Notes under the pieces: model-generated
Told to the model about the DNA's origin: nothing
Database searches by the model: none
The model's input: only the letters and a program-made list of their open reading frames with translations
Assembly (NCBI RefSeq): GCF_000379725.1
Contig: NZ_KB903664.1
Location: 186,154-250,153 of the forward strand
Direction of reading: 5' to 3'
From: Cytophaga aurantiaca DSM 3654
GTDB taxonomy: Bacteria; Bacteroidota; Bacteroidia; Cytophagales; Cytophagaceae
DNA length: 64,000 nucleotides
Program-made: the position numbers and the translations under genes
Shown: one piece after another, positions 10,131 through 30,965 of the stretch
Position numbering within the stretch: the stretch's first letter is position 1
Layout: each line of letters opens with the position of its first letter

Positions 10131-10134
10131 TTTA

Positions 10135-10181
10135 TTCAGACTTATGCAGTGGCAGGAATACAGTTACTGCATAAGTCTGAA
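10135..10181. terminator. Bidirectional terminator, 16-bp perfect stem
   Basis: Perfect inverted arms of 16 bases, 10135-10150 (TTCAGACTTATGCAGT) and 10166-10181, surround a 15-base loop and are followed by a T-rich run. It lies exactly between the converging YfhO-like and flippase genes and should end both transcripts. Confidence 0.85.
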
Positions 10182-10182
10182 T

Positions 10183-11685
10183 TTATTTTTTTAGCAATGG
10201 TATTTTTGAAAACATTTTTTGCATCGTAGCTGAAATATCATCAGATACGTTAAACTTCAATAATACAAATACAAAAAGTATTCCTATAAATAGCGATTTT
10301 AATGCAATCACCAATAGCGTTAAGAGAATTGTATCTGCTTTATAATTAAGTAAACTGAAAAGCAAACACACAAGTATTCCAAAAAGAATAATGTGAATCA
10401 TTTTTCCGGAAAAAGGCTGTACACCAATTTTATTCCAAACGACAATGGTTTTAAGAATATTCATGAGAATAATATTTAATAATAAAGCCAAGGCAGCGCC
10501 ATTGATGCTGAATATTGGTATGAATATAAAATTTGCTCCAACTGTAAGAATAGATAATGCAATTACGAAGCCTATGTTGTATCTGTAATATTTTGAGAAC
10601 TGAATGATTTCGCCATTAATGCTGGTTGCCATTTCAAATAATTTTGACAGACCAATAAACAGAATGACATATTTACCTTCCGAAAATGTTTCAGCCTTTG
10701 GAATCAATGATAATAAATCATCTACATTGATCCAGATTAATAAAAAGATTAGCATACCCGCTGCAAGCTGTATCAACGAATTTTTCTTGTACAACTCATC
10801 AATTTTAGCAACATCATTTTCCTGAGAGGCAGTAGATAGTAAGGGAATAGAAATCATGGATAAACTTTTTCTAGGAACTTCAACTACAGTGCCTATAAAA
10901 AAAGCCAGGCTGTATACCGCAACATTTGTAAGACCTTCCATAGAACCAAGCATGAGACTATCTATTTTTGAAATAATCATAGTACCTGCAACACCTGGAA
11001 TTAAATACAATACATAAATACCCATTTCTTTGACTTTGCTTTTATTAAAAAGCGTAAAATCAGGCCGAACATCCAGGAGATTTATCTTTTTCGTATACAA
11101 AACAAGGAATAGCAAAGAAGTTGCATAACTGATTACGTACAGGTAAACCATCCCATCCAGATTAATAAGATTCATGTGATATAAAATCACAACAACGGTA
11201 AAGAAAAGTCTCAAAAAAACTTCCCTTAAAAAAGAAGAAACACTTATGTTGAAATTAGCTCGAAGGTATGCTTCAAAAATAAAAATATACATCATGAAAA
11301 ATGTAAGCGGGAGTATAAAATTAAAATAGTCAATCAATATGGCTGACTTTTCCATATAGATATTTGCCCAAACACTTTTTAGGGCAATAAATCCTATAGC
11401 AAATAATATAAAGCCGATTAGAGGATAAAATAAAATCAAAAATAAGAATCCATTATTCTTGTTTCCATCTTTAAAATGAGAATAGAAACGATCTGATAAA
11501 CTTGAAGCACCAATTTGCGTGAAAAACGCCAAAAGCATTGGTATATCAATAATTAATCTCAGTAAGCCTATTTCCTCCAGATTTAAATACTTAGGAAACA
11601 GCCATAAAACATTTATTGCTCCGATACCAATTCCAATATATGTAATTATTGAGTTGTTTATACTCTGTTTTATGATGATTCCCAT
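10183..11685 (-). CDS. Polysaccharide flippase (Wzx-like, MOP superfamily)
   Basis: This 500-residue protein has some fourteen hydrophobic helices, with ISKIDSLMLGSMEGLTNVAVYSLAFFIGTVVEVPRKS in the middle, a pattern seen in polysaccharide/lipopolysaccharide export proteins of the Wzx group. It is divergent from the nonulosonic acid operon that starts 95 bases away, so it is a reasonable candidate for exporting a glycan that carries that acid. The substrate is inferred only from position. It differs in length and sequence from the flippase at 1955. Confidence 0.82.
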   Translation of the reverse strand: MGIIIKQSINNSIITYIGIGIGAINVLWLFPKYLNLEEIGLLRLIIDIPMLLAFFTQIGASSLSDRFYSHFKDGNKNNGFLFLILFYPLIGFILFAIGFIALKSVWANIYMEKSAILIDYFNFILPLTFFMMYIFIFEAYLRANFNISVSSFLREVFLRLFFTVVVILYHMNLINLDGMVYLYVISYATSLLFLVLYTKKINLLDVRPDFTLFNKSKVKEMGIYVLYLIPGVAGTMIISKIDSLMLGSMEGLTNVAVYSLAFFIGTVVEVPRKSLSMISIPLLSTASQENDVAKIDELYKKNSLIQLAAGMLIFLLIWINVDDLLSLIPKAETFSEGKYVILFIGLSKLFEMATSINGEIIQFSKYYRYNIGFVIALSILTVGANFIFIPIFSINGAALALLLNIILMNILKTIVVWNKIGVQPFSGKMIHIILFGILVCLLFSLLNYKADTILLTLLVIALKSLFIGILFVFVLLKFNVSDDISATMQKMFSKIPLLKK

Positions 11686-11779: not shown

Positions 11780-12796
11780 ATGAATGATTTAAATGACAAA
11801 ACGGTATTTATTACTGGCGGAACGGGTTCATTGGGAAAGAAGTATGTAACATTTTTGCTGGAGCAATTCCCTCTTATAAAAAGCGTAATTGTCTATTCAA
11901 GAGATGAGTATAAACAATACCAATTTAAAAATAGTCTTTCTGAAGATCAACGTAAAAAAGTGACATTTGTGTTGGGGGATATCCGCGATCTTCCGCATCT
12001 CACACAATCGTTAAAAGGTGTTGATTATGTATTGCACACTGCAGCCCTAAAACATGTAACTGTTGGCGAAGAAAATCCTTCCGAATTTATTAAAACAAAT
12101 ATTATTGGTTCAGAGAATTTAATTCACGCTTGTATCTCTGCCGGAGTAAAGAAAGTGGTTGCTATGTCAACCGATAAAGCAGTTGCTCCTTTAAGCCTGT
12201 ATGGATCAACAAAATTATGTGCAGATAAATTATTTATTGCTGCAGGTAATAAAAATCAGGATACTATTTTTTCAGTTGTTCGTTTTGGCAACTTACTTGG
12301 TTCCCGCGGTTCAGTCCTTTCTCATTTTATTGCCAAAGCTAAAGAAGGCGTTATTCCCGTTACAGATGAGCGCATGACGCGTTTTCATATAGACTATGTG
12401 GATTTAATTCAATTGATCATGCTTGCATTTAACAGTGCACAGGGTGGTGAGATTTATATTCCTAAGCTCGCTTCATATAAAATAACAGATTTGGCAAAAG
12501 CGGTTGATGAAGATGCTAAAATTGAATTCGTCGGAATCAGACCCGGAGAAAAAATTCATGAAGAGTTAATTCATAACGCAGATTCTTCAAATGTGTTGGA
12601 GTTGGAAAATTATTACATCGTTATGCCACCAAACAAAGGCATCAATGATATGAAACATCTGGATAAATACAAGCCGGTTAAAATACATCAGTCACTTTCT
12701 TATTCTTCAGATGTCAATACACAGTGGTTGGATTCAGAGGATTTAAGAGGAATTATTAAATCAGAAATACATCAGGTTGTTGATATAAGAAAATAG
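11780..12796 (+). CDS. pseB: UDP-N-acetylglucosamine 4,6-dehydratase (5-inverting), PseB-like
   Basis: The 338-residue SDR protein has TGGTGSLGKKYV (NAD binding), YSRDEYKQY, GDIRD, AALKHV, MSTDKAVAPLSLYGSTK with the Lys/Tyr catalytic pair, and the C-terminal ENYYIV and SYSSDVNTQWL that are characteristic of PseB. In flagellated bacteria PseB removes water from UDP-GlcNAc and inverts C5, the first step toward pseudaminic acid. It is the first gene of the operon, and legB follows after 11 bases. It is odd that both a PseB-like and a LegB-like dehydratase are present with one aminotransferase; PseB may serve a different L-sugar. Confidence 0.88.
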   Translation: MNDLNDKTVFITGGTGSLGKKYVTFLLEQFPLIKSVIVYSRDEYKQYQFKNSLSEDQRKKVTFVLGDIRDLPHLTQSLKGVDYVLHTAALKHVTVGEENPSEFIKTNIIGSENLIHACISAGVKKVVAMSTDKAVAPLSLYGSTKLCADKLFIAAGNKNQDTIFSVVRFGNLLGSRGSVLSHFIAKAKEGVIPVTDERMTRFHIDYVDLIQLIMLAFNSAQGGEIYIPKLASYKITDLAKAVDEDAKIEFVGIRPGEKIHEELIHNADSSNVLELENYYIVMPPNKGINDMKHLDKYKPVKIHQSLSYSSDVNTQWLDSEDLRGIIKSEIHQVVDIRK

Positions 12797-12807
12797 CAGA
12801 TACAATT

Positions 12808-13806
12808 GTGGAACTTAAGAATAAAAAAATATTAGTAACGGGTGCCGATGGTTTTATCGGAAGCCATCTTGTTGAAACACTCGTGAATCAGGGCTATAGC
12901 GTTAAAGCTTTTGTGCTTTATAATTCGTTTAATTCCTGGGGCTGGCTGGATACATTGCCTAAAGAAACATTAAGCAAAATCGAAATATTTACGGGCAACA
13001 TTACAGATCCGAACGGAGTGCGCACTGCTGTTAAAGGCGTGGATGTAATCTTCCATTTAGCAGCATTGATTGCTATTCCATACAGTTACTATTCTCCCGA
13101 CAGCTATGTTGATACAAATATTAAAGGTACACTGAATATACTTCAGGCAGCAAAAGAATTTGGGATAGAAAAAACATTGGTGACTTCAACATCCGAAGTT
13201 TACGGCACGGCGTTGTATGTACCGATTGATGAGAAACATCCGAAGCAGGGACAGTCACCGTATTCAGCTACAAAAATATCGGCTGACTTTTTAAGTGAAT
13301 CTTTTTACAGAAGTTTTAATCTACCCGTTACCATCGTAAGACCATTTAATACATTTGGTCCGCGCCAGTCAGCACGTGCAGTGATACCTACAATCATTAC
13401 ACAATTACTTGCGGGCAAAGAGGAAATAAAATTGGGAGCATTGCATCCTACACGCGATCTATTGTATGTAAAAGATACCGTAAACGGCTTTATTCAAATA
13501 GCTCTTTCAGATAAGACAATCGGAGAGGAAGTTAATATTGCTACCAAATCCGAAATTACAATTGGCGATTTAGCGAATGTCATCATTCAGCAAATTAATC
13601 CCAATGCAAAAATTGTTTCGGATGATGTGCGTTTGAGACCTGCGAAAAGTGAAGTGGAACGTTTGTATGGTAGCAATGATAAAATTCTTGCTCTAACAAA
13701 TTGGAAACAGCAATATACGTTTGAAACGGCTATAGCAGAAACCATTTCCTGGTTTAAACAAGATGGCAATCTAAGCCAATATAAAACAGACATCTATAAT
13801 GTTTGA
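12808..13806 (+). CDS. legB: NAD-dependent 4,6-dehydratase, LegB-like
   Basis: The 332-residue protein starts at GTG 12808. It has the Rossmann motif VTGADGFIGSHL, the segment YNSFNSWGWLDTL that is typical of LegB-type proteins, STSEVYGTA, and PYSATKISAD (Tyr-x-x-x-Lys). LegB converts GDP- or UDP-GlcNAc to the 4-keto-6-deoxy sugar in legionaminic acid synthesis, the substrate of the next enzyme, LegC. The stop overlaps the legC start by eight bases, indicating translational coupling. The weaker start codon just after pseB suggests the genes are read together. Confidence 0.88.
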   Translation: MELKNKKILVTGADGFIGSHLVETLVNQGYSVKAFVLYNSFNSWGWLDTLPKETLSKIEIFTGNITDPNGVRTAVKGVDVIFHLAALIAIPYSYYSPDSYVDTNIKGTLNILQAAKEFGIEKTLVTSTSEVYGTALYVPIDEKHPKQGQSPYSATKISADFLSESFYRSFNLPVTIVRPFNTFGPRQSARAVIPTIITQLLAGKEEIKLGALHPTRDLLYVKDTVNGFIQIALSDKTIGEEVNIATKSEITIGDLANVIIQQINPNAKIVSDDVRLRPAKSEVERLYGSNDKILALTNWKQQYTFETAIAETISWFKQDGNLSQYKTDIYNV

Positions 13807-14956
13807 TGAAGTTATATCATTTATTAAAAACATAAATCCGGAGCGTAATTTTATTCCGTTGCATGAGCCTGTTTTTAGTGGGAATGAAAAAAAATATTTA
13901 AACGAATGTATTGACAGCGGATATGTATCTTCGGTAGGTGCTTATGTAACCGCCTTTGAAGAAGCCATTGCTGCTTATACAGGAGCGAAGAGAGCTGTTG
14001 TAGTGGTGAATGGAACGCAGGCGTTGCATCTTGCCTGCGTTGTAGCAGGTGTAGGCAAAGAAGATGAAGTGATCACACAACCGTTAACATTCATTGCTAC
14101 TGCAAATGCTATTTCATATACAGGTGCAGCATGCATCTTTGTAGACGTAGATAAAGATACCATGGGCATGTCTCCTGAATCATTAAAATTGTTTCTTGAA
14201 ACAAATGCAGTAATCAGAGATGGAAAGTGTTTTAATAAGACGACCAATAAACAGATCAAAGCATGTATTCCCATGCATACCTTTGGGCATCCGCTTCGTA
14301 TCGATGAAATAGCTACTATCTGCAAACAATATCATATCACATTGATTGAAGATGCTGCTGAAAGCATTGGCTCTACTTACAAAGGAAAGGCCACAGGTCG
14401 TTTCGGGTTGATGGGAACATTAAGTTTTAACGGAAATAAAATAATTACTTCTGGTGGTGGCGGTGCAATCATAACCGACGATGATGCAGTAGCAGATCTT
14501 GCAAAGCACTTGAGCACGCAGGCTAAAATTCCACACACGTGGGAATATGCACACGATCACATCGGATATAATTACAGAATGCCCAATCTCAATGCTGCGT
14601 TGGCATTGGCACAACTGGAAAATCTAGATTCGTTTATTGAAAAGAAACGAGCGCTTGCAATAATTTATAAAACATTCTTTGAAAAAAAAGGATTCAACTT
14701 TGTATCTGAACCTGAACATGCATTCTCCAATTATTGGCTGCATGCAATTATATTGAAAGACAGAACTGAACGAGATGCGTTTTTAAATGAGTCGAATGCA
14801 AATGGAGTGATGACAAGACCTATATGGAACCTCATGAATAAAGCTCCCATGTTTGCACAATGTCAATGCACCAATCTTGATAATGCACAATGGCTTGAAG
14901 ACAGAGTTGTGAATATACCAAGCAGTGTTACATACAAAGAAAATGAAAGTAATTAA
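13799..14956 (+). CDS. legC: PLP-dependent sugar aminotransferase, LegC family
   Basis: The 385-residue DegT/DnrJ/EryC1-type aminotransferase has FIPLHEPVFSGNEKKYLNECIDSGYVSS at the N-terminus, which marks the LegC group, plus NGTQALHLA, EDAAE (184-188) and SFNGNK with Lys214 as the probable pyridoxal phosphate lysine. It puts an amino group on C4 of the keto sugar made by LegB. In the known pathway the new amine is then acetylated by LegH. No such acetyltransferase follows here; instead an ATP-grasp gene begins within the last 14 bases of this one. Confidence 0.9.
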   Translation: MFDEVISFIKNINPERNFIPLHEPVFSGNEKKYLNECIDSGYVSSVGAYVTAFEEAIAAYTGAKRAVVVVNGTQALHLACVVAGVGKEDEVITQPLTFIATANAISYTGAACIFVDVDKDTMGMSPESLKLFLETNAVIRDGKCFNKTTNKQIKACIPMHTFGHPLRIDEIATICKQYHITLIEDAAESIGSTYKGKATGRFGLMGTLSFNGNKIITSGGGGAIITDDDAVADLAKHLSTQAKIPHTWEYAHDHIGYNYRMPNLNAALALAQLENLDSFIEKKRALAIIYKTFFEKKGFNFVSEPEHAFSNYWLHAIILKDRTERDAFLNESNANGVMTRPIWNLMNKAPMFAQCQCTNLDNAQWLEDRVVNIPSSVTYKENESN

Positions 14957-15887
14957 TATACTGTTTTTAGGTGGTGCAAAGCGCGTTTCATTAGCCGAAA
15001 AGCTTATACAAGCGGGCTTGGAACGGAATTGCTCGGTTCATATTTATTCATATGAATTGGATATGTATGTGCCGATTGCTTCTGTAGGTTCGGTGATTAA
15101 AGGCTTGAAATGGAGTAGTCCGGATTTGTATGCCAATCTTTCAGAGATTATTAAGAGCAAACAGATTCATACCGTATTGCCGTTTGTAGATGCGGCGATT
15201 GCTGTAACATCAAAATTAGCTTTACTTCATCCGGAATTGTATTTTCCTGTTAGCGATTTAGAAATTGCGGATGTAATGTTTGATAAGGTTACTGCGAATA
15301 CATGGTTTATCGATCATCAACTTCCAGTGCCTCCTCAAAATGAATCATTCCCGCTCATTGCAAAGCCTCGTAAAGGTTCTGCTTCAAAAGGGATATTCGT
15401 ACTTCAGGATAAAGATGATGCTGATTATTTTGAAAAGAAAAATGACCGCAATGATTTTTTGATTCAGAAATTTATTCCGGGTATTGAGTATACAGTTGAT
15501 TGTTATATTTCACGTGAAAGCAAACTTATTTCTGTCGTGCCAAGAATGAGAGCAGAAGTAACTTCAGGTGAAGCAACCCAAACAATTACTGTTAAGGATG
15601 AGCAGATTATAACGCTTTCGGAGAAAATTTTAAGTAAAGGGAAATTTAAAGGACCTATTACGATACAATTTATCCGCGATGCGAAAACATTAGAAACATA
15701 CATTATGGAAATCAATCCGCGTTTTGGCGGAGGCGTTTTAGCGAGTATTGAAGCTGGCGCCAACAGTGCACAGGTGCTTATTGATGAACTGTTGGGATTG
15801 CCGGTGAATGTGAATACTTCATGGAAAGAAAATATTATTATGACACGGTCTTTTAGAGAAACATATTTTTATGCAGATAATCATTGA
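14943..15887 (+). CDS. ATP-grasp ligase (CarB-like) in nonulosonic acid operon
   Basis: The 314-residue protein begins at ATG 14943, overlapping legC by 14 bases. It has a Rossmann-like N-domain (INILFLGGAKR), PLIAKPRKGSASKG (140-150, ATP-binding lysines 141 and 144), and MEINPRFGGG (255-264) with the metal ligands Glu256 and Asn258 and the phosphate-binding Arg260. This is the ATP-grasp fold of carboxylate-amine ligases, which activate a carboxylate as an acyl phosphate and join it to an amine. Lying directly after the aminotransferase, it may put an amino acid or other acid on the new amine in place of LegH. That role is inferred; the family assignment is firm. Confidence 0.85.
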   Translation: MKVINILFLGGAKRVSLAEKLIQAGLERNCSVHIYSYELDMYVPIASVGSVIKGLKWSSPDLYANLSEIIKSKQIHTVLPFVDAAIAVTSKLALLHPELYFPVSDLEIADVMFDKVTANTWFIDHQLPVPPQNESFPLIAKPRKGSASKGIFVLQDKDDADYFEKKNDRNDFLIQKFIPGIEYTVDCYISRESKLISVVPRMRAEVTSGEATQTITVKDEQIITLSEKILSKGKFKGPITIQFIRDAKTLETYIMEINPRFGGGVLASIEAGANSAQVLIDELLGLPVNVNTSWKENIIMTRSFRETYFYADNH

Positions 15888-16188
15888 CATGGATGGTACC
15901 ATATGTACCGAAGAACGTATGTTTAGCAGAAGTCTTGCAAAGCCCTTGCCTGGATCTGTTGAGAATGTAAATAAATTATACAATGAAGGTCATACCATCA
16001 TTATTTATACCGCTCGTACGTGGATGGAATTTGAAATGACGACAGAGTGGCTTAAAAATAATGGCGTGCAATATCATCAGTTAATGATGGGCAAACCTGT
16101 TGGAGATTTCTGGATCGATGACAGAGCCTTGAATTTTAATAATAACTGGGAACAGATATCTGAAGTGATTAATAAGAAAAAGAAATAA
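15871..16188 (+). CDS. Minimal HAD-superfamily phosphatase-like protein
   Basis: This is only 105 residues long. It has DxD motif I (IIDMDGT, Asp6 and Asp8), motif II with Thr47 (IIYTAR), Lys75 (MMGKP) and the acidic motif IV (IDDR, 83-85), so all HAD catalytic residues are present without a cap domain. It overlaps the ATP-grasp gene by 17 bases and shares one base with legI. Similar short HAD proteins are often called capsule biosynthesis phosphatases. A paralogue lies at 29898. It could remove phosphate from a pathway intermediate, but the substrate is unknown. Confidence 0.82.
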   Translation: MQIIIDMDGTICTEERMFSRSLAKPLPGSVENVNKLYNEGHTIIIYTARTWMEFEMTTEWLKNNGVQYHQLMMGKPVGDFWIDDRALNFNNNWEQISEVINKKKK

Positions 16189-17207
16189 TGAGTAACAAAG
16201 TAATCATCATCGCTGAGGCAGGAGTAAATCATAATGGAAGCATTGAATTGGCTTACAAAATGATTGATTTGGCAAAAGAAGCCGGGGCGGATTATGTGAA
16301 ATTTCAAACAGCTATACCTAAATTAGTATATTCAGCGAATACGCCTAAGGCAGCTTATCAGATACGCAATACGGGCTCTGATGAACCTCAGATCAAGATG
16401 GCTGAGAAAATTCATTTGCCGGTTACAGATTATAAAGCATTGAATGACTATTGTAACAAAATTGGAATCAAATTTTTATCTACTCCATTCGATCATGTAT
16501 CTATTGATGTATTAGAGGAGCTTGATATGGATTATTTTAAAATCCCTTCCGGTGAAATTACAAATCTTCCTTATTTAAAAAGAATAGGCTCGATAGGCAA
16601 ACCGGTGATTATGTCTACTGGTATGGCTAAGTTGGGTGAAATTGAGGATGCGCTGGAAGTACTTCAATCATGCGGCTTGCGTAAAGATCAGCTTACAATT
16701 CTGCATTGCAATACAGAATACCCAACCCCTATGGTTGATGTAAATCTAAATGCAATGCATTCGATGGCTTTGGCATTTGGTGTGAAGGTTGGTTATTCAG
16801 ATCATACAGAAGGTATTGAAGTACCGATTGCTGCAGTAGCGCTTGGTGCAACAGTGATTGAAAAACATTTCACCTTAGATAAATCAATGGAAGGTCCGGA
16901 TCATAAGGCTTCTCTTGATCCTGTTGAATTGAAAAATATGGTTCGTGCCATTCGCAATATTGAAATTGCATTGGGTACAGGTCTGAAGTCGCCTACGGAA
17001 TCTGAAAAGAAAAATATTGTTGTTGCAAGAAGAAGCATTCATATACTTAATAACCTTGATGCCGGACATATACTTACTCCGCAGGATCTTATAATGAAAA
17101 GACCTGGAGATGGTATCAGTCCTATGAATATAGATGTAGTACTAGGTAAAAAACTACTACGCTCTATGATGGATGATGAAAAGTTAACATGGCAGGATAT
17201 TCAATGA
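16188..17207 (+). CDS. legI: Nonulosonic acid synthase (NeuB/LegI family)
   Basis: The 339-residue protein has the NeuB layout: a TIM-barrel domain (IIAEAGVNHNGSIELA, FKIPSGEITNLPYL, LHCNTEYPTP, VGYSDHTEG, EKHFTLDKSMEGPDHKASL) and a C-terminal SAF/antifreeze-like domain from about residue 283 (ARRSIHILNNLDAGHILTPQDL). It joins phosphoenolpyruvate to a six-carbon amino sugar to make the nine-carbon acid. The IPSGEITN and LNAMHSMALAF stretches recall the legionaminic acid synthase of Campylobacter rather than PseI or sialic acid synthase. The stop overlaps the next ATG by four bases. Confidence 0.92.
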   Translation: MSNKVIIIAEAGVNHNGSIELAYKMIDLAKEAGADYVKFQTAIPKLVYSANTPKAAYQIRNTGSDEPQIKMAEKIHLPVTDYKALNDYCNKIGIKFLSTPFDHVSIDVLEELDMDYFKIPSGEITNLPYLKRIGSIGKPVIMSTGMAKLGEIEDALEVLQSCGLRKDQLTILHCNTEYPTPMVDVNLNAMHSMALAFGVKVGYSDHTEGIEVPIAAVALGATVIEKHFTLDKSMEGPDHKASLDPVELKNMVRAIRNIEIALGTGLKSPTESEKKNIVVARRSIHILNNLDAGHILTPQDLIMKRPGDGISPMNIDVVLGKKLLRSMMDDEKLTWQDIQ

Positions 17208-18307
17208 AAATAGGTGTACTGACAAGTTCCAGAGCAGAGTATGGTATTTATTATCCCTTACTTCAACGATTAAAGAACGATCCGTTTTTTGAGCTGGAAA
17301 TTATTGCTTTTGGTACACATCTTTCCGTTGAACATGGCTATACAATAAATCAAATACTAGCAGACGGATTTGAAGTGCCTCATAAACTGGAAACAGTTCC
17401 TAAAGGGGATACTTCATTTGATATAAGCTCTTCAATGGGTTTAACGATTGAACGTTTTGCTGCTTTCTGGTCCAAGCATTCTTTTGATGTTGTTTTTGCG
17501 CTGGGCGATCGTTACGAAATGTTTGCAGCAGTAAGCGCGGCGTTTCCATTCAATATAAAAATTGCACATATCTCCGGTGGCGAAACCACACTTGGTGCTA
17601 TTGACAATGCATACAGACATGCTATTTCACTGATGTCTACGTATCATTTTGCTTCAACCGATGTATACAAGAACAGAGTTATTGAAATTATCGGTTCGGA
17701 TGAAAACGTATATAATGTAGGTGCGCTCAATATTGAAAATTTCATTCAGCAGAAATATTTAAGTATTGATGCATTTAAGGAACGGTTTAACATAGACTTA
17801 TCTCTGCCTTCTATTCTTATTACATTTCATCCTGAAACGATTGCACTGGATAAGAATGTAGTGTATGTAGAAGAATTAATTAAAGCATTGGAACAATGCA
17901 ATGCGTATCAATTAATCATTACCATGCCGAATGCAGATACAATGGGTAATGTTATACGCGCTAAATTGAATGAATTTATTGCTGTGCATAAAAATGCCAT
18001 TGGCGTTGAGTCCTTTGGAATGCTAGGCTATATCTCATGCATGAAGTATTGTGCATTTATGCTTGGAAATACTTCAAGCGGATTTGTTGAAGCTTCGTTC
18101 TTTCCTAAATATGTTATCAATTTAGGAGATCGTCAGAAAGGACGATTGTTAACACCGAATATCATAACGGTTCCTATTGAAAAAGAGGCTATTTTAGCTG
18201 CAGTAAAAAAGATTCAGTCTGCTCCACAGTTGAGTAATATCTTCGAATATGGAAAGGGAGATGCGTCTGAGCAGATTTGTCAAATTTTAAAATCAAAAAA
18301 TATCTAG
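17204..18307 (+). CDS. legG: Hydrolysing nucleotide-sugar 2-epimerase (NeuC/LegG family)
   Basis: The 367-residue protein starts at ATG 17204 (MKIGVLTSSRAEYGI), in an ATGA overlap with legI. It has SSRAEYG, GDRYEMFAA, HISGGETTLGAIDNAYRHA, LITFHPET and MLGNTSSGFVEA, all marks of the NeuC group of hydrolysing epimerases. It inverts C2 and releases the nucleotide, giving the free 2,4-diamino sugar that LegI condenses. Presence of this type, rather than PseG, puts the main pathway on the legionaminic side. It differs from the non-hydrolysing WecB at 3220. Confidence 0.92.
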   Translation: MKIGVLTSSRAEYGIYYPLLQRLKNDPFFELEIIAFGTHLSVEHGYTINQILADGFEVPHKLETVPKGDTSFDISSSMGLTIERFAAFWSKHSFDVVFALGDRYEMFAAVSAAFPFNIKIAHISGGETTLGAIDNAYRHAISLMSTYHFASTDVYKNRVIEIIGSDENVYNVGALNIENFIQQKYLSIDAFKERFNIDLSLPSILITFHPETIALDKNVVYVEELIKALEQCNAYQLIITMPNADTMGNVIRAKLNEFIAVHKNAIGVESFGMLGYISCMKYCAFMLGNTSSGFVEASFFPKYVINLGDRQKGRLLTPNIITVPIEKEAILAAVKKIQSAPQLSNIFEYGKGDASEQICQILKSKNI

Positions 18308-18308
18308 C

Positions 18309-19361
18309 ATGTCTCATTCAACTCAATTTGATAAATATTTAATTAATGAGTCCAGTACAATTTTTCAAGGATTAGAAAAATTGAATACGAATGAATCATT
18401 GACATTATTTGTACAAAATGAAAATGGGAAAATTGTTGGTTCGTTAACGGACGGCGATTTTCGCAGAGGCATACTGAAGGGAATATCATTGGAAGAGAAC
18501 ATAAAGAAAATTATGCATGATAATTTTCTTTATTTAAAACAAAATAAGCCGGATCTTCAATTAATAGACAAAGCCAGGAAAAGCAGCATTCGATTGCTGC
18601 CGATTTTAGATGAGAATTATTTTTTAAATCATGTTCTTGATCTGAAAAAACAAAAATCAATGTTGCCTATTGAAGCTGTATTGATGGCAGGTGGCAGGGG
18701 AGAACGCTTACGTCCACTAACAGACACTACTCCTAAACCCTTGTTGAAATTAGGAGACAAAGCAATCATTGAATACAACATCAATAACTTAACTGCATTT
18801 GGTGTAAAGCAGGTATATATTTCTGTAAAGTATTTAGCAGAAAAAATCGAATCATACTTAGGTGATGGCAGCAAGTATAATTTAACTATTAATTATTTAA
18901 AGGAAGAAAAACCACTGGGTACGTTAGGTTCTGTTTCATTGGTGAATGAATTTCATACCGATTCAGTTTTGGTAATGAATTCAGATTTGTTTACCAATTT
19001 GAATTTAGAAGAATTTTATAACCACTTTATTGAGTCTGGCGCTTCCATGGCAATCGCAACATTTCCATATGTAGTTTCTGTACCTTACGGAGTACTGGAT
19101 ACAGCGCATTCAGAAGTGGTTTCGTTTCTGGAAAAACCAACGTATACCTATCAGGCAAGTGCTGGTATATATCTTATTAAAAAAGATGTTTTAAAAGATG
19201 TTCCGACAGATACATTTTTTAATGCAACAGATTTAATGGATCTATTAATTTCGAAAAATAAAAAAATTACATATTTCCCTATTGTGGGTTATTGGATTGA
19301 TATTGGTAAGCCGGATGATTATAAAAAGGCTCAGGAATATGTAAAATATCTGAACGTATAA
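18309..19361 (+). CDS. ptmE: CBS-domain sugar-phosphate nucleotidyltransferase, PtmE-like
   Basis: The 350-residue protein has two CBS repeats in its first 115 residues (KIVGSLTDGDFRRGIL) and a nucleotidyltransferase domain from about 118 (EAVLMAGGRGERLRPLTDTTPKPLL), with LVMNSDL as the metal site. The same two-domain layout is found in PtmE of Campylobacter jejuni, which makes GDP-glucosamine for the legionaminic acid pathway. By analogy it would feed a GDP-linked precursor to LegB. The CBS pair may sense a nucleotide. It begins two bases after legG. Confidence 0.85.
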   Translation: MSHSTQFDKYLINESSTIFQGLEKLNTNESLTLFVQNENGKIVGSLTDGDFRRGILKGISLEENIKKIMHDNFLYLKQNKPDLQLIDKARKSSIRLLPILDENYFLNHVLDLKKQKSMLPIEAVLMAGGRGERLRPLTDTTPKPLLKLGDKAIIEYNINNLTAFGVKQVYISVKYLAEKIESYLGDGSKYNLTINYLKEEKPLGTLGSVSLVNEFHTDSVLVMNSDLFTNLNLEEFYNHFIESGASMAIATFPYVVSVPYGVLDTAHSEVVSFLEKPTYTYQASAGIYLIKKDVLKDVPTDTFFNATDLMDLLISKNKKITYFPIVGYWIDIGKPDDYKKAQEYVKYLNV

Positions 19362-19363
19362 AA

Positions 19364-20095
19364 ATGGCATCTCAAGCAAACATACTTATTACAATCTGTG
19401 CCAGAGGTGGCTCTAAAGGAATACCAGGGAAAAATATTAAACTTCTTGGCGGACGCACATTGATTGATTATACCATTCAGACAGCAAAGAAGTTTGCTGA
19501 AAGGCATGCTGCTGTCATTACACTTTCAACAGATTACGAAGATATTCTGCAGGCAGCTGCTGCTTCCGGACTCGTAACAGATTACCGCAGGCCTGAATAT
19601 CTGGCTACCGATGAAGCCGGTAAAATAGATGTGATCAGAGACATTGTTTTATTCGAAGAGAAGAAGGCGGGTAAAAAATTTGATTACGTATTGGATTTGG
19701 ATGTAACATCACCACTCCGTACAATAGAAGATCTTGAAAAAGCATTTTCTTTATTACTTGATAACAAAGAAGCAATAACACTTTTCTCTGTAAATGCTGC
19801 AGCGCGTAATCCATATTTTAATATGGTTGAGCAAAAAGAAAACGGATTTTATGGATTGGTGAAAAAGCTTGAACAGACGAGCCTTACACGTCAGTCGGCT
19901 CCTAAGGTCTATGATTTAAACGCTTCGTTTTATTGGTACAAACGTGTGTTCTTCGATTCAGGATTAAAAACACCCATTACTACGAATACGCTCATTTATC
20001 AGATGAATCATATCTGTTTTGATTTAGATCATGTAATTGATTTTGAATTTTTAGATTTTCTTATCACAAATCATAAACTGGATTTTGAGCTTTGA
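19364..20095 (+). CDS. legF: CMP-nonulosonic acid synthetase (NeuA/LegF family)
   Basis: The 243-residue cytidylyltransferase has ICARGGSKGIPGKNIKLLGG at the N-terminus (CTP-binding P-loop-like motif), YVLDLDVTSPLRT with the metal-binding aspartates, and R-Q-S-A-P and NASFYWY further on. It charges the nine-carbon acid with CMP, the donor used by transferases. It starts two bases after ptmE and its TGA stop overlaps the TTG start of the oxidoreductase by four bases. The legionaminic rather than sialic assignment rests on the neighbours. Confidence 0.9.
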   Translation: MASQANILITICARGGSKGIPGKNIKLLGGRTLIDYTIQTAKKFAERHAAVITLSTDYEDILQAAAASGLVTDYRRPEYLATDEAGKIDVIRDIVLFEEKKAGKKFDYVLDLDVTSPLRTIEDLEKAFSLLLDNKEAITLFSVNAAARNPYFNMVEQKENGFYGLVKKLEQTSLTRQSAPKVYDLNASFYWYKRVFFDSGLKTPITTNTLIYQMNHICFDLDHVIDFEFLDFLITNHKLDFEL

Positions 20096-21027
20096 AAGTT
20101 GTTATCATAGGATTAGGGTCTATTGCTAAAAAGCACATTGCAGCAATCCGGCAAATAAAACCGGATGCAATAATAATCGCATTGCGTTCGAATGCATCCG
20201 CCGATGAGATTCCATCTGTAGAAAATATTTATTCTATTGATGATATAAAAAGCATTCATCCTGATTTTATTATTATTAGTAATCCCACCATGTTGCATGG
20301 TGAAACAATTGAAAAACTTATACAATTTAATATTCCGTTGTTTATTGAAAAGCCTGCCTTACATGACCTGCAGCAGGAAGAACATATAAGCACACTGCTT
20401 AAAGCAAATAATATAAAAACGTACATCGCATGCAACCTTCGGTTTTTAGATTGTTTGGTGTATGTAAAAAATCATCTTGCGGAAAAGCAAGCGGCTTTAA
20501 ATGAAGTTAATGTATATTCCGGTTCTCATTTGCCGGATTGGCGCCCTGGTACAGATTTTCGCAAAGGATATAGTGCGAATAAAAATATGGGGGGCGGTGC
20601 GCATTTAGATTTGATTCATGAGTTGGATTATGTCTACTGGATATTTGGTAAGCCTTTACAGGTCTCAAGTATTTTGAGAAATAAATCGACGTTGAAAATT
20701 GATGCAATAGACTATGCAAATTATACCTGTGTGTACGAACGTTTTGTTGTTGGCATTGTTTTGAATTATTATCGCAAAGATTATAAACGAACACTTGAGC
20801 TTGTATTCAGTGATGAGACATGGTTGGTAGATCTTCCGGAGAATAAAATTACACGAGCAGACGGAACAGTTATTTTTAAAAGTGAGCAGAAAATGATACA
20901 GACGTACCTGAATCAAATGACGTATTTTTTTGATTTTCTGAATTCAGGTTCAGCAATCTCTATGAATGATTTTACACAAGGAATTGATGTACTTAAAATT
21001 TGTTTGAACAATGATATTAAAAGATAA
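20092..21027 (+). CDS. Gfo/Idh/MocA family oxidoreductase
   Basis: The 311-residue protein has an N-terminal NAD(P)-binding GLGSIAKKHIAAI, EKPALHDL with the conserved Glu-Lys-Pro, and GGGAHLDLIHELDYVYWIFG. The start is TTG 20092, overlapping the legF stop as TTGA; no ATG fits better. In the Campylobacter ptm/leg cluster an accessory oxidoreductase gene sits at a similar place (ptmF), so it may help make or modify the precursor sugar. The reaction is not settled, and I do not assign a symbol. Confidence 0.82.
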   Translation: MKVVIIGLGSIAKKHIAAIRQIKPDAIIIALRSNASADEIPSVENIYSIDDIKSIHPDFIIISNPTMLHGETIEKLIQFNIPLFIEKPALHDLQQEEHISTLLKANNIKTYIACNLRFLDCLVYVKNHLAEKQAALNEVNVYSGSHLPDWRPGTDFRKGYSANKNMGGGAHLDLIHELDYVYWIFGKPLQVSSILRNKSTLKIDAIDYANYTCVYERFVVGIVLNYYRKDYKRTLELVFSDETWLVDLPENKITRADGTVIFKSEQKMIQTYLNQMTYFFDFLNSGSAISMNDFTQGIDVLKICLNNDIKR

Positions 21028-21751
21028 AGTAATAATTGTTACAGGAGGAAGCGGATTGCTTGGAAAGGCAATTATGAACGATCTTAAAGAAAAAGGAGCG
21101 ATTGCTGTTAACGTTGATATAAAAGAAGACGTTGGATCAGGCCATCATTTTGTTCATGGTGATACAACCGATGAAAAAAGTATTGCTTTAATTTTTGAAA
21201 CGGTTCACCAAAAGTTCGGACAGATTCACGGATTGGTTAACAATGCCTATCCGCGTACAGCCGATTGGGGTAAACCATTTGAAGAAGATACCGATCTTAC
21301 TTCCTGGAGAAAAAATGTAGATTTGCAATTGAATAGTTATGTTGCTTGCTGCCAGGAATACATTAAATATGCTAAACCTTATGCACAAGGAAGCATTGTA
21401 AACATGGCATCTATATATGGTGTTGTTGGCAATGATTTTACTGTTTATAATGGTACAGAAATGAAACCGGCAGCAGCTTATTCTGCTATCAAAGGCGGCC
21501 TCATTAATTTCTCACGATATCTGGCATCTTTTTATGGAAAAAATGGCATTCGGGTAAATGTAGTTTCACCCGGAGGTATTTTCGATCATCAGAATCCTAT
21601 CTTTGTTAAAAATTACGAAGATAAGGTTCCTCTTAAAAGAATGGGCACTCCTGAAGATATTGCTCCTTCGGTAAGCTTCTTATTATCTGATGAAGCGAAA
21701 TACATAACCGGACATAATTTAATGGTAGATGGTGGCTGGACAGCCATTTAA
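21011..21751 (+). CDS. ptmA: Short-chain dehydrogenase/reductase, PtmA-like
   Basis: The 246-residue SDR has TGGSGLLGKAI (cofactor binding), VNNAYPR, MASIYGVVGNDF with the catalytic Ser, and YSAIKGGL with Tyr-x-x-x-Lys. The ending LLSDEAKYITGHNLMVDGGWTAI is a classical SDR C-terminus. The MASIYGVV and VNNAYPR features resemble PtmA of the Campylobacter legionaminic acid cluster. The start overlaps the oxidoreductase gene by 17 bases. The exact substrate is unknown; it is the last gene of the tightly overlapped part of the operon. Confidence 0.82.
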   Translation: MILKDKVIIVTGGSGLLGKAIMNDLKEKGAIAVNVDIKEDVGSGHHFVHGDTTDEKSIALIFETVHQKFGQIHGLVNNAYPRTADWGKPFEEDTDLTSWRKNVDLQLNSYVACCQEYIKYAKPYAQGSIVNMASIYGVVGNDFTVYNGTEMKPAAAYSAIKGGLINFSRYLASFYGKNGIRVNVVSPGGIFDHQNPIFVKNYEDKVPLKRMGTPEDIAPSVSFLLSDEAKYITGHNLMVDGGWTAI

Positions 21752-26417: not shown

Positions 26418-26448
26418 AAAATGCCGATTATGAAATAATCGGCATTTT
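26418..26448 (+). terminator. Intrinsic terminator after ffh
   Basis: A perfect 14-base stem, 26418-26431 and 26435-26448, around a 3-base loop, carries the core ATGCCGATTAT and is followed by a run of T. It lies 21 bases after the ffh stop. Confidence 0.88.
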
Positions 26449-26544: not shown

Positions 26545-27594
26545 TTATTGCCTTTTTATTTTTTTTAAATAAAATTTCAATAGGCTATTATATGAAAAAA
26601 TCCACAATCGAATATAAACAGGTAAAGAATCTTTATCTCTATATTTAAAACTTAGGTATCTACTAAGTTGTATGTATTTGATTTGATTTAAAAATGAAAT
26701 TTTATTCACATTTAAATCTTCTCTCACAAACAATGTATTGAAATTTTCATTGAATGCTAGTGTATTTTCATATTGATCTTCAACGACTATTTTTTCGCCT
26801 CTCCAATATAGAGTACCATAAACATTGCTTGAAAAACATTGATAAAATTCAGCAGTTAAAAAATTACGTATTTTATTTCCTTGAAAAGAATAATTCACAT
26901 CTAAGGTATTAACAAAGTAATCTCTGGTATTTACATTCAATTCTTTAAAATAATTCAGATAAGAATGTTTAAGTGAAATTTCTAAATGAACAGAACTATT
27001 GAATTCAAAATAATTAAATGCCAGCATACTTTTTGAAACAGAACGCAAAACATCATAGCTGCCTATAAAGTAAAAATCGTTTACCAGATACTTTTGCTTG
27101 TTAATGAACGGAACAAATAATTTATGAGAAACGTCTGAACCTGATGATTTCAAAAAAGTTCTATGCTCTTCAATAAGATCATTTATATTAAAAAACTGAT
27201 CTGTTCTTACTTTTACAACATAATCACACTTAGATGCATCAAATGCTTCGACGCCTTTTAAGCAGGAATAAAACTGTTTGTATTTATTATTTATATCTGT
27301 AGGGAATTTCACCTTTTCAGAAAGAAGTATTTCCGGAGTTGGATTGTCAAGTTTTACTATCTTACATGGATACGCCGATAATTCTTCTTCAGCTAATACT
27401 TCATCTTTCCAGGTAGTAAGTACTACTTCAGAAAACAAATGGGAATAATTTTTTAGCAGTTCTTTTATGTTAGGTAAGCAATCGTAGTTTACAATTGTTT
27501 GTTCAGCAACTTTATCTTTGTATGTTTTGCCCGAGCGCCCTTTTGATAATATCGGCCCTTGAATCAGTAAACTATATTTTATCGTAGATGTCAT
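26545..27594 (-). CDS. WavE-like lipopolysaccharide synthesis protein
   Basis: The 349-residue protein starts with IKYSLLIQGPILSKGRSG, followed by VVLTTWKDE, a conserved pair seen in the WavE family (PF07507) of lipopolysaccharide or surface glycan genes; KVRTDQF further on may be a GT-A metal site. WavE-type proteins are probably glycosyltransferases. It is the last gene of a four-gene minus-strand operon and starts a few bases after the nucleotidyltransferase ends. The donor sugar is unknown. Confidence 0.7.
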   Translation of the reverse strand: MTSTIKYSLLIQGPILSKGRSGKTYKDKVAEQTIVNYDCLPNIKELLKNYSHLFSEVVLTTWKDEVLAEEELSAYPCKIVKLDNPTPEILLSEKVKFPTDINNKYKQFYSCLKGVEAFDASKCDYVVKVRTDQFFNINDLIEEHRTFLKSSGSDVSHKLFVPFINKQKYLVNDFYFIGSYDVLRSVSKSMLAFNYFEFNSSVHLEISLKHSYLNYFKELNVNTRDYFVNTLDVNYSFQGNKIRNFLTAEFYQCFSSNVYGTLYWRGEKIVVEDQYENTLAFNENFNTLFVREDLNVNKISFLNQIKYIQLSRYLSFKYRDKDSLPVYIRLWIFSYNSLLKFYLKKIKRQ

Positions 27595-27598
27595 CTTA

Positions 27599-28360
27599 TT
27601 ATTCCATTAAACGAAGTAATGAGTCATGCGTCATATTACCTTTAAAGTGAAGATATTCTTCGGGAGTACCAATAAAAAATAAATTATCTATAGATATCAA
27701 TTCAAAGGAAATATAACTACCTTTTTGTATCAGATAGTTATACATTGGCGCAACATAGTATTCATTGCGTGTCAATATGTTATTGTTCTTATAGTAGAGA
27801 AACATTTCTTCAAAAATTTCAATCGATTTGAAATAGTAAAGCCCCGAGCTGCATAAATCGGAGATTCGTTCTTTTTCTGTTGTTCTGATGACTTTAGTTA
27901 AATCCTGCGTATCAGTCTCAATGAATGACCAGTGAGAACCTTTACCCTTAAAGACCTCCACATAACCATCTGCAGTTTCAAGTGATTCAGGAAAGATATA
28001 ATCTGGTCTGAAGGTATCAATATTAAATACTACAAGTCCTTGTTTCTTATCAGAAATCAAATCGGTACCCTTCCATACGGTTTCTGCCTGTCCTTTGGTT
28101 GGTTCGGCTAAACTCACAATTTTATAATTTTTAATTCCCAGAGTAGTGATTTTATTTTTAATAAAATCTTCCACTACTGAGTCTTGATTTATTATAAAGA
28201 CAAATAAATTTTTGCTAAAATATCTTTTAAAACTGCTAACAGCTATTTCAAAAACTGAAACGCCATGTACATCAAGCATAAACTTAGGAAGCGTGTATCC
28301 TGCATCATAAAAGCGACTGCTTTTACCAGCCATAGGAATGAGTATGACGAATTCTTTCAA
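27599..28360 (-). CDS. Sugar-phosphate nucleotidyltransferase
   Basis: The 253-residue protein has the nucleotidyltransferase start ILIPMAGKSSRFYDAGYTLPKFML, with the GxxSR-type nucleotide loop and Pro-Lys, then VVFNIDTFRPD as the metal site. The start is TTG 28360, two bases after the stop of the fused kinase gene; no ATG gives the full N-terminal motif. It should activate a sugar or polyol phosphate with a nucleotide for a glycan. The substrate may be supplied by the upstream kinase domain. Confidence 0.82.
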   Translation of the reverse strand: MKEFVILIPMAGKSSRFYDAGYTLPKFMLDVHGVSVFEIAVSSFKRYFSKNLFVFIINQDSVVEDFIKNKITTLGIKNYKIVSLAEPTKGQAETVWKGTDLISDKKQGLVVFNIDTFRPDYIFPESLETADGYVEVFKGKGSHWSFIETDTQDLTKVIRTTEKERISDLCSSGLYYFKSIEIFEEMFLYYKNNNILTRNEYYVAPMYNYLIQKGSYISFELISIDNLFFIGTPEEYLHFKGNMTHDSLLRLME

Positions 28361-28362
28361 GA

Positions 28363-29901
28363 TTATTTTTTATTAAATTCAATATATAAACACAGTGCAT
28401 TTGCTAAAAAAGCTTTTTGTCTTAATGGATTGTCGTAATGTAATGGAAGCATAGACAAGAATAAATGAACCATAATAGCATAGTTGGCTTTGCTATTTAA
28501 GTGTACGCCATTAATAACATATTGCGCAAAGTGTTTTTGTAACGCTTTAATATTTTCGCTTATGTGAATATTAAATTCCAACGCATAAGTACCTGTTTCA
28601 TTCAGTTCAAAATAATTGGCAATGATCAGATCGTAATTGCCCAGTATTGAATGAGAGAGTTTCGCTATATCATAACGAACATCTCCATATATAGAATAAT
28701 TTCCGTCTTCATCCAATCCTCTTGGATCAATTACTTTAATATCCAGATTTTTAAAATCAAATAAGATATTGCTGAAACACAAATCGCCGTGTATGACTCC
28801 TATCTCATTATTAGTAGCAGGTTGAATCCACTGTGCTGTTTCAGCAATAATTTGATTCAAGCTAGGTACTGTTTGCTTGTTTACAGTCCATGTACAATTA
28901 AGATCTATTTGTGTTTGATCTGCAAAACGCTGTAATCGTTTTTGTGTTTTGGGTAAATAAAGATTATTATTTGATCTTTCTTCCGTCTGATCTGGTTTGA
29001 TTGCAGTACACGCTTCAATGAACCGGATTACCGAATCTAAAATTGGTTTCCAAAAAAAAGACGATTGATTTCCAAATACCAATAACTCATTCAGCGCGCT
29101 AAAGTTCAAATATTCCAATGCGTATCCTGATTCTAAGGTTCCAAGATACATTGGAGTGTAAACTTTAAGTGAAAAGGGTAAGTTTTGATACCAAAAAGAT
29201 TCTGCTGACATCTTTTCTTTATCTTCACTTTGTTTTGTTAAGACTCTGTTTTTGATGGTGAGCTTATTGAATACTCTTTGCGTGGTATACTTTGCTTTAG
29301 AACAATAAAAAGTATTGATGTGACCAAAATCCAACCATTCTTTTACGTGTGTTTCTTTTACGGATCTTTCCTTACTATACTTCCTTACAGCACTTATAAA
29401 ATCAAAATTAACTTCAAATAACTTATCTATTAACTTGTGAATATTTTCGAATGAAAAATATCCGCAATAGGTTAGTTTTTTATCGAGATCCTGATCGGAC
29501 TCTGCCCAGTCATAGAAGTATTCAGACTTTCCGACCGCTATAAAATCAGCATCAATAGGTACTTCCGGAATTAAGGTATCTCCATAAAGGATCCGAACGG
29601 GCTGGTTCCGTTCATGCATTTTGTTCAGGCTATAGAATATAGATAGACCTATCGACAGGTTATCTGGCACTTTAATGATTTGTACACGATGATCTGTTAA
29701 TACTTTTTTGTCAACGTCACTAATAGTGTATGAATCCGGAACTGAAAGGTAAATCGTTTCATTTTCAATTTCTTTTGAAAACTGACTCAATTGGTGTAAG
29801 TAGAGACGTTTATTGCCAATAGGCAAAAAGCTTGGAGGAATATAACCGAACTCAGATTTTAGCGAAGCTTCAATGTACGCACCAGATGTAATTAAAATCA
29901 T
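28363..29901 (-). CDS. Nucleotidyltransferase-like / APH-kinase fusion protein
   Basis: The 512-residue protein has two parts. Residues 1-200 look like a diverged nucleotidyltransferase (FLPIGNKRLYLHQL, ILYGDTL, DFGHINTF). Residues 215-512 are an aminoglycoside/choline-kinase-type phosphotransferase with IGVIHGDLCFSNILFDF (catalytic HGD at 371-373, Asn378) and IDPRG (Asp392). The N-domain lacks the classic GGxGTR loop, so it may bind rather than catalyse. Kinase, nucleotidyltransferase and HAD phosphatase side by side suggest a nucleotide-activated small molecule for surface decoration. The gene overlaps the HAD gene by four bases (ATGA). Confidence 0.75.
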   Translation of the reverse strand: MILITSGAYIEASLKSEFGYIPPSFLPIGNKRLYLHQLSQFSKEIENETIYLSVPDSYTISDVDKKVLTDHRVQIIKVPDNLSIGLSIFYSLNKMHERNQPVRILYGDTLIPEVPIDADFIAVGKSEYFYDWAESDQDLDKKLTYCGYFSFENIHKLIDKLFEVNFDFISAVRKYSKERSVKETHVKEWLDFGHINTFYCSKAKYTTQRVFNKLTIKNRVLTKQSEDKEKMSAESFWYQNLPFSLKVYTPMYLGTLESGYALEYLNFSALNELLVFGNQSSFFWKPILDSVIRFIEACTAIKPDQTEERSNNNLYLPKTQKRLQRFADQTQIDLNCTWTVNKQTVPSLNQIIAETAQWIQPATNNEIGVIHGDLCFSNILFDFKNLDIKVIDPRGLDEDGNYSIYGDVRYDIAKLSHSILGNYDLIIANYFELNETGTYALEFNIHISENIKALQKHFAQYVINGVHLNSKANYAIMVHLFLSMLPLHYDNPLRQKAFLANALCLYIEFNKK

Positions 29902-30272
29902 TGTTTTTCCTTTTCCAGTAATTGCTGTATTTCAGAATAAGAATATTTGAGAAATTCACTTGGCCGGATAGACTTATCATCGATATAAAATCCTTCAAAA
30001 CCGCACCATGGTTTGCCAACGACAACTTCATCAAACGGAACATCATGCTCTTTTAGCCAATCCAGTATAATCGGTAAGGTATGAACATTGATTTTGCCAA
30101 CATTTCCGCTAAATGTTCTCACGTTTCTACTTGTGTGAATTGTAATTTCAAATCCGGAATCTTTGTATTCCTTTAGCTTATTTATAAAAGATGTATTGGG
30201 GGCAGCATTTTTATAATCGGACTTTTCTGTATAACAAATTGTATCATCCAGATCCACTATTAGTTTTTTCAT
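29898..30272 (-). CDS. Minimal HAD-superfamily phosphatase-like protein, second copy
   Basis: The 124-residue protein begins at ATG 30272 (MKKLIVDLDDTICYTE); upstream in-frame sequence is a hydrophobic run outside the family. Motif I has Asp7 and Asp9, motif II IHTSRN carries Thr/Ser, VVGKPW supplies the lysine, and YIDDKS is motif IV. It resembles the 105-residue protein at 15871 in size, lack of a cap domain and the GKP...IDD ending. It is the first gene of the minus-strand operon with the kinase fusion, the nucleotidyltransferase and the WavE-like gene. Confidence 0.8.
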   Translation of the reverse strand: MKKLIVDLDDTICYTEKSDYKNAAPNTSFINKLKEYKDSGFEITIHTSRNVRTFSGNVGKINVHTLPIILDWLKEHDVPFDEVVVGKPWCGFEGFYIDDKSIRPSEFLKYSYSEIQQLLEKEKQ

Positions 30273-30634: not shown

Positions 30635-30883
30635 ATGAATTTTGAAGAAGTAACTGATGAGTTAAATAACAAAACCGTTATCACTCGATTAAAAAAAGGA
30701 AGCTTGTCGTATCTGAAATATGGTGAAGTGTTTGTTGGGAAGCTTGTTGGAAGAACAAAAGACAAAACAGGAAAGATTGGTAGTTCTATCGCATCATTAA
30801 CCGTTCTGGCAGGGAATTACATTGCGTATCAGATACCTACGCAGGATATTATGGATATCACAGAAACACTGATGAAGAGATAG
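30635..30883 (+). CDS. Small protein of unknown function
   Basis: The 82-residue protein starts MNFEEVTDELNNKTVITRLKKGSLSYLKYGEVFVGKLVGRTKDKTG and has no signal peptide or membrane helix. It has a basic middle and a hydrophobic stretch near residues 48-66. I recognise no family. It looks real because the frame is clean, codon use is like its neighbours, and a strong terminator follows 22 bases later. It stands alone between the glycan operon and pdhB. Confidence 0.55.
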   Translation: MNFEEVTDELNNKTVITRLKKGSLSYLKYGEVFVGKLVGRTKDKTGKIGSSIASLTVLAGNYIAYQIPTQDIMDITETLMKR

Positions 30884-30905: not shown

Positions 30906-30965
30906 ATATAAATAAAAAACCTCCCATCCCGATAGCTATCGGGACGGGAGGTTTTTTATTTATAT
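30906..30965. terminator. 60-base near-perfect palindromic terminator with CCCGATAGCTATCGGG core
   Basis: Arms of 30 bases (30906-30935 and 30936-30965) pair with a single mismatch and have no loop beyond the centre. The core CCCGATAGCTATCGGG is flanked by CCTCCC/GGGAGG and A/T runs. It lies between the converging small gene and pdhB and should terminate both. The same core occurs at 45367-45412. Confidence 0.88.

Follow-up and report, generated by a model that had tools for sequence, protein, structure and literature searches.

Two described routes of sugar activation resemble the genes considered here. In the AmgK/MurU pathway of peptidoglycan recycling, an APH-type anomeric sugar kinase acts first and a nucleotidyltransferase (NTase) follows, and in heptose activation (HddA/GmhB/HddC, HldE/GmhB) an anomeric kinase, a HAD phosphatase and an NTase act on a sugar phosphate. 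A third system is the Escherichia coli K4 capsule, in which deletion of kfoE yields non-fructosylated chondroitin (PMC7925653, PMC7429809) and in which KfoE has been named a fructosyltransferase (Liu 2014, as cited in PMC7925653 and PMC10609508). Industry takes an interest in K4-type capsules, and strain engineering has made repeated use of the kfoE deletion. Here we analyze a four-gene operon of Cytophaga aurantiaca DSM 3654 that contains a member of the KfoE family. It lies in a stretch of 64,000 nucleotides (contig NZ_KB903664.1, positions 186,154 to 250,153 of the forward strand), referred to below as the window. Three of its products, a mini-HAD phosphatase, the KfoE-family fusion (FUS) and a stand-alone nucleotidyltransferase (NT), probably form a cassette that synthesizes a nucleotide-activated ketose, most likely fructofuranose, as a sugar donor.

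The KfoE-family operon and its enzymes

The four genes occupy positions 26545-30272, all on the minus strand, and are transcribed in the order mini-HAD, fusion, NT, WavE-like. The HAD and fusion genes overlap by 4 nt, and the two gaps after them measure 2 and 4 nt, a spacing of open reading frames (ORFs) that confirms the operon proposed in the initial annotation. The features are as follows.

29898-30272, minus strand: mini-HAD phosphatase of the EcbF-BcbF family, 124 residues (TIGR01689)
28363-29901, minus strand: KfoE-family fusion, 512 residues (identity to the K4-locus KfoE, predicted structure)
27599-28360, minus strand: stand-alone nucleotidyltransferase, 253 residues, TTG start (PF00483, 4evw)
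26545-27594, minus strand: diverged member of the WavE family, 349 residues (PF07507)
26418-26448: bidirectional terminator-like hairpin past the WavE-like gene, at the 3' end of the operon (14-pair stem, T-run)

The fusion consists of an NTase-like domain (residues ~1-205) and an APH/choline-kinase-like domain (residues ~206-512), the latter giving weak matches to the Pfam Choline_kinase and APH profiles that fall under the curated cut-offs. Its AlphaFold model (70 sequences) had a mean predicted local distance difference test score (pLDDT) of 93.9. In a Foldseek comparison with the PDB, the model matched nucleotidyltransferases (the CTP:inositol-1-phosphate transferase IPCT, 4evw, MurU and HddC) and choline kinases, and no glycosyltransferase fold or family appeared among the top 50 structure matches. 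In the kinase domain, H371, G372, D373 and N378 (HGDxxxxN), D392 of a DFG-like motif and the DPR motif were 100% conserved across 98 sequences. Profile comparison with hhalign shows the fused NTase-like domain to be a homologue of NT (probability 96.6%, E 6e-10). Across ~98 sequences, this domain has an SAAYV-like segment in place of the GxSSRF loop and PP(S/A/C) in place of PK. Because the loop and the lysine expected for catalysis are gone, we read this domain as a pseudo-enzyme, probably a pseudo-nucleotidyltransferase paralogous to NT. It keeps conserved residues of its own (GDTL, PPxFLP), and GDTL suggests that the N-terminal domain still has some role, structural or otherwise.

These features bear on the published name of KfoE. 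If the name were correct, the N-terminal GT-A-fold domain would perform the transfer, the kinase-like domain would be otherwise employed, and HAD and NT would be accessory. Deletion of kfoE led to the name (Liu 2014, cited in PMC7925653 and PMC10609508), and GT-A transferases and NTases do have a common fold. However, every one of the top 50 structure matches is an NTase or a choline kinase, the fused domain is recognizable as a paralogue of NT, and the kinase motifs are invariant. A transferase role for KfoE therefore appears unlikely to us.

The two partner enzymes carry intact catalytic signatures. The mini-HAD scored 194 bits against TIGR01689 (EcbF-BcbF capsule biosynthesis phosphatase; curated cut-off 162) and matched PDB 1xpj at E 4e-50, and its catalytic motifs DxDxT, K and DD were 100% conserved in 92 sequences. 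We place its start at the ATG at 30272; a longer ORF from 30404 exists, and homologues begin MKKxIVDLD. NT belongs to PF00483 and matched PDB 4evw, named in the structure library as a nucleoside-diphosphate-sugar pyrophosphorylase of Vibrio cholerae RC9, at E 1.4e-64. Its signature, comprising the GxSSRF loop and PK, is intact across 96 sequences (G12 98%, R16 98%, P25 100%, K26 98%), and F17 is also at least 98% conserved. Motifs and fold matches agree with the earlier view that a small-molecule kinase (HGD, IDPRG) is joined to a diverged nucleotidyltransferase and lies beside a true nucleotidyltransferase and a phosphatase.

Recurrence of the cassette and its link to capsule fructosylation

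The initial annotation had suggested a search for the same gene set in other genomes, and the outcome was strongly positive. GTDB stretches with fusion relatives numbered 537 after confirmation, of which 80 were kept, and 98 cassette loci were read for gene order and neighbors. The order was HAD-FUS-NT in 81 of the 98, FUS-HAD-NT in 6 and NT-HAD-FUS in 2, and the HAD-to-fusion distance was 20 nt or less in 80 of the 81. The three-gene block is found in ~90 further loci of Pseudomonadota and Bacteroidota, fusion relatives also occur on plasmids, and the recurrence of the block far exceeds chance. Two plasmids, from E. coli and Citrobacter (L010, L009), carry capsule-type loci with the cassette, adjoining insertion sequence elements. 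A group of variant loci (L003-L007, L014) includes other Bacteroidota with the FUS-HAD-NT order and a different N-terminal domain, as well as a Legionella plasmid encoding a kinase of ~320 residues without most of the NTase-like domain.

A search of relatives found the cassette in 7 of 59 genomes, and a sample of 296 genomes from the phylum contained 3 carriers (own genome counted in both). In the genus of V. mimicus, 13 of 99 genomes had it, and neither of the two congeners of C. aurantiaca that were searched did. Sequences resembling some or all of the block, in many cases just the HAD gene, were present in 120 of the 5,426 complete E. coli genomes, and one IMG/VR scan for viral carriers returned no relative. 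Few stretches of the window are as poor in GC as the operon (0.318 compared with 0.362). Given the patchy distribution, the absence in two congeners and the low GC, the operon was probably gained by horizontal transfer.

One cassette locus, from E. coli SCU-115 (L098), ties the fusion to K4 genetics. A 686-residue protein encoded there differs from the K4 chondroitin synthase structure 2z86 at about two positions in an alignment of 625 residues, and the locus also has a GalE-like gene, a nucleotide-sugar dehydrogenase gene and HAD-FUS-NT. Because the chondroitin synthase, GalE-like and dehydrogenase genes occur together, we assign L098 as a K4-type capsule locus. Onto it we mapped the published primer pair for kfoE deletion, which has 50-nt homology arms (PMC7429809). 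The forward arm is identical to L098 positions 9220-9269, ending one base ahead of the fusion start codon at 9270, and the reverse arm matches exactly from 10839, just past the last base of the fusion at 10838 (FUS 9270-10838). The arms delimit FUS, and kfoE is therefore the fusion gene. The window fusion is 40% identical to this KfoE across 518 columns, covering both domains, and in each case HAD precedes and NT comes after; the fusion is a member of the E. coli K4 KfoE family. Identity to the K4-locus proteins was 58% for the mini-HAD and 41% for NT. Since seven kfo genes, kfoA-G, have been counted (PMC10609508) as against nine ORFs in the matching stretch of L098, HAD and NT were apparently left unnamed.

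The initial annotation had stated that the pathway could not be named, and that homologues with an already named pathway would refute its proposal. Such homologues now exist in part, through kfoE deletions and capsule fructosylation, and the fusion can be placed in the K4 kfoE family. The naming is nonetheless only partial, and the published fructosyltransferase role is doubtful.

K4 genetics also bear on the substrate. The C-terminal domain resembles choline and ethanolamine kinases, as would be expected of a LicC/LicA-like phosphocholine or phosphoethanolamine route that pairs a kinase with a CTP transferase. The family is, however, tied genetically to fructose in K4, and a phosphatase has no obvious place in such a route. 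Among the typed ORFs neighboring the window set there was no LicB-type choline transporter and no LicD-type phosphotransferase, and we regard a Lic-like route as very improbable. Choline, ethanolamine and glycerol, which had been put forward as test substrates for the kinase, are not the best supported; their activation is disfavored by K4 genetics, which point to fructose.

A candidate route to activated fructose

Because the kinase, HAD and NT motifs are conserved and the N-terminal domain of the fusion is NT-like, we view the genes as a donor-synthesis set rather than a transferase, and a route to an activated sugar, as foreseen in the initial annotation, is most likely. Fructose 6-phosphate would be the starting compound. 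The kinase (APH-fold) domain of the fusion would serve as a ketose anomeric kinase, placing a phosphate on the C2 (anomeric) hydroxyl, and the mini-HAD would take off the terminal (6-)phosphate, either ahead of the kinase or following it, giving fructose 2-phosphate, possibly via the 2,6-bisphosphate. NT would then act as a nucleoside diphosphate (NDP)-ketose pyrophosphorylase, coupling the anomeric phosphate with a nucleoside triphosphate to form NDP-fructose, while the pseudo-NTase domain probably serves to position or control the kinase or to partner NT. Finally, a GT-A-fold transferase would move the sugar to a surface glycan, this being the WavE-like protein here and in Vibrio lipopolysaccharide (LPS)-core loci and a KfoD/DUF7796-like protein in several E. 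coli capsule loci. We infer the substrate in C. aurantiaca, the nucleotide, the order of steps, the role of the pseudo-domain and the identity of the transferase. The complete scheme, in which three proteins (pseudo-NTase kinase, mini-HAD and a dedicated NT) make NDP-fructofuranose, KfoE has been assigned wrongly and the fructosyltransferases are WavE and KfoD-like proteins, strikes us as evenly balanced between right and wrong. In the literature searched, no paper named a nucleotide-activated form of fructose as donor in capsule or LPS synthesis, and queries on NDP-fructose names and fructose 2-phosphate gave nothing relevant.

The WavE-like protein scored 31.7 bits against PF07507 (cut-off 27), a match that covers its N-terminal ~140 residues only and profile positions 2-121 of 305, and it is only 15-21% identical to other WavE proteins. 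The model obtained for it has medium confidence (pLDDT 65.5); Foldseek placed it with GT-A transferases and cytidylyltransferases, in a GT-A/nucleotidyltransferase fold group compatible with a glycosyltransferase. A WavE-family gene is present somewhere in 51 of the 98 cassette loci and directly follows NT in 24 of 58 loci scanned; the KfoD-like/DUF7796-related family is present in 23 of 98. Homology between WavE and KfoD-like (DUF7796) proteins was considered on the basis of short common motifs (STW, RxD) and rejected, as profile comparison was unsupportive. In V. mimicus (L041), HAD-fusion-NT-WavE lies in an LPS-core locus with genes for heptosyltransferase II, 3-deoxy-D-manno-octulosonic acid (Kdo) transferase and Kdo kinase. 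In V. cholerae, VC0229 and VC0231 are reported to take part in phage VP3 host adsorption (PMC10458087). That several different transferase families accompany the cassette speaks further against KfoE as the transferase, and loss of donor synthesis would give the same phenotype as loss of the transferase.

Several points weigh against a fructose-donor cassette. One is the published name of KfoE, fructosyltransferase. Neither WavE nor KfoD-like proteins were seen in 28 of the 98 loci, in several cases because the stretch covered is short. We know of no enzyme of the set that has been assayed. The E. coli O78 O-antigen locus (L097) contains HAD-fusion-NT, a WavE gene and three other glycosyltransferases, and the O20/O137 O-antigen locus also bears the cassette; to our knowledge the O78 repeat is without fructose and the O20/O137 repeat without obvious fructose. 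Either fructose, which is acid-labile and easily lost under mild acid, disappeared during analysis, or the cassette serves other sugars in some lineages. The O78 locus also has more genes than its published repeat would appear to need. Other loci speak for fructose: the cassette is found in the ST69 locus L095, which we take to be the K52 capsule locus, and fructose is present in the K52 capsule and in the V. cholerae core. The Campylobacter jejuni HS1 capsule has fructose branches, and its 11-gene locus shows no such set in the published table; HS1.08 alone was identified as the fructose transferase (PMC7901785). The cassette is therefore not the sole route to fructose. An HS1/8 insertion encodes unknown proteins of 240, 507 and 132 residues, the sizes of NT, fusion and HAD (compared by size only), and a second capsule was not observed in the strain carrying it (PMC7901785).

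A broader possibility, which overlaps with fructose-donor synthesis, is a general activation module whose subfamilies act on different substrates (fructose, sedoheptulose, xylulose, or an aldofuranose like ribose). Fructose in K4 would then not be predictive for this genome. The cassettes in the O78 and O20/O137 loci are in keeping with such variation, as are the two gene orders, the diverged N-terminal domain in other Bacteroidota, the Legionella plasmid kinase without a full NTase-like domain, and the mere 40% identity between the window fusion and KfoE. On the other hand, the kinase-domain motifs and most invariant residues are common to the window and K4 proteins, and we entertain a variable substrate only tentatively. 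If the cassette does make a fructose donor, one published enzyme assignment, that of KfoE, changes; a cassette widespread in E. coli capsules and O-antigens, the Vibrio LPS core, plasmids and Bacteroidota acquires a function; and WavE acquires a candidate donor. Fructose would also become predictable in glycans whose published structures may miss it, such as O78.

Genomic setting and comparison with known systems

A nonulosonic (legionaminic-type) acid synthesis cluster occupies positions 11780-21751 of the window on the plus strand, with genes for a PseB-like dehydratase, LegB, LegC, NeuB, a NeuC-like epimerase, a nucleotidyltransferase, a cytidylyltransferase and a PtmA-like reductase. Glycan genes, DUF5672 among them, continue after it to 24516. 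A 20-pair terminator-like hairpin at 30913-30958 separates a small gene, which ends at 30883, from the minus-strand gene whose 3' end is at 30981. Promoter-like sites showed no excess over chance.

Several described systems can be compared with the window set. In C. jejuni HS1, HS1.08 places beta-D-fructofuranose on the capsule (PMC7901785), a separate solution, the cassette not being in the locus table. AmgK/MurU follows the same logic of kinase and nucleotidyltransferase, and MurU is among the fold matches of the fusion, but that pathway has no phosphatase and no fused pseudo-NTase, and its substrate is an aldose. Heptose activation offers the full trio of kinase, HAD phosphatase and nucleotidyltransferase, although the kinase is of the GHMP or PfkB type, the phosphatase is HAD-IIIA and the substrate is an aldoheptose. 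In the Vibrio LPS-core (wav) cluster, the HAD-fusion-NT-WavE order is the same (V. mimicus, L041) and 4evw falls in the NT family; heptosyltransferases are nearby there, whereas the window set is near a nonulosonic-acid type cluster. The K4 capsule locus (kfoA-G) has KfoD-like and KfoG proteins, a chondroitin backbone and no recognized WavE-family gene, but it contains the same HAD-fusion-NT block, with 58, 40 and 41% identity, respectively, to the window proteins.

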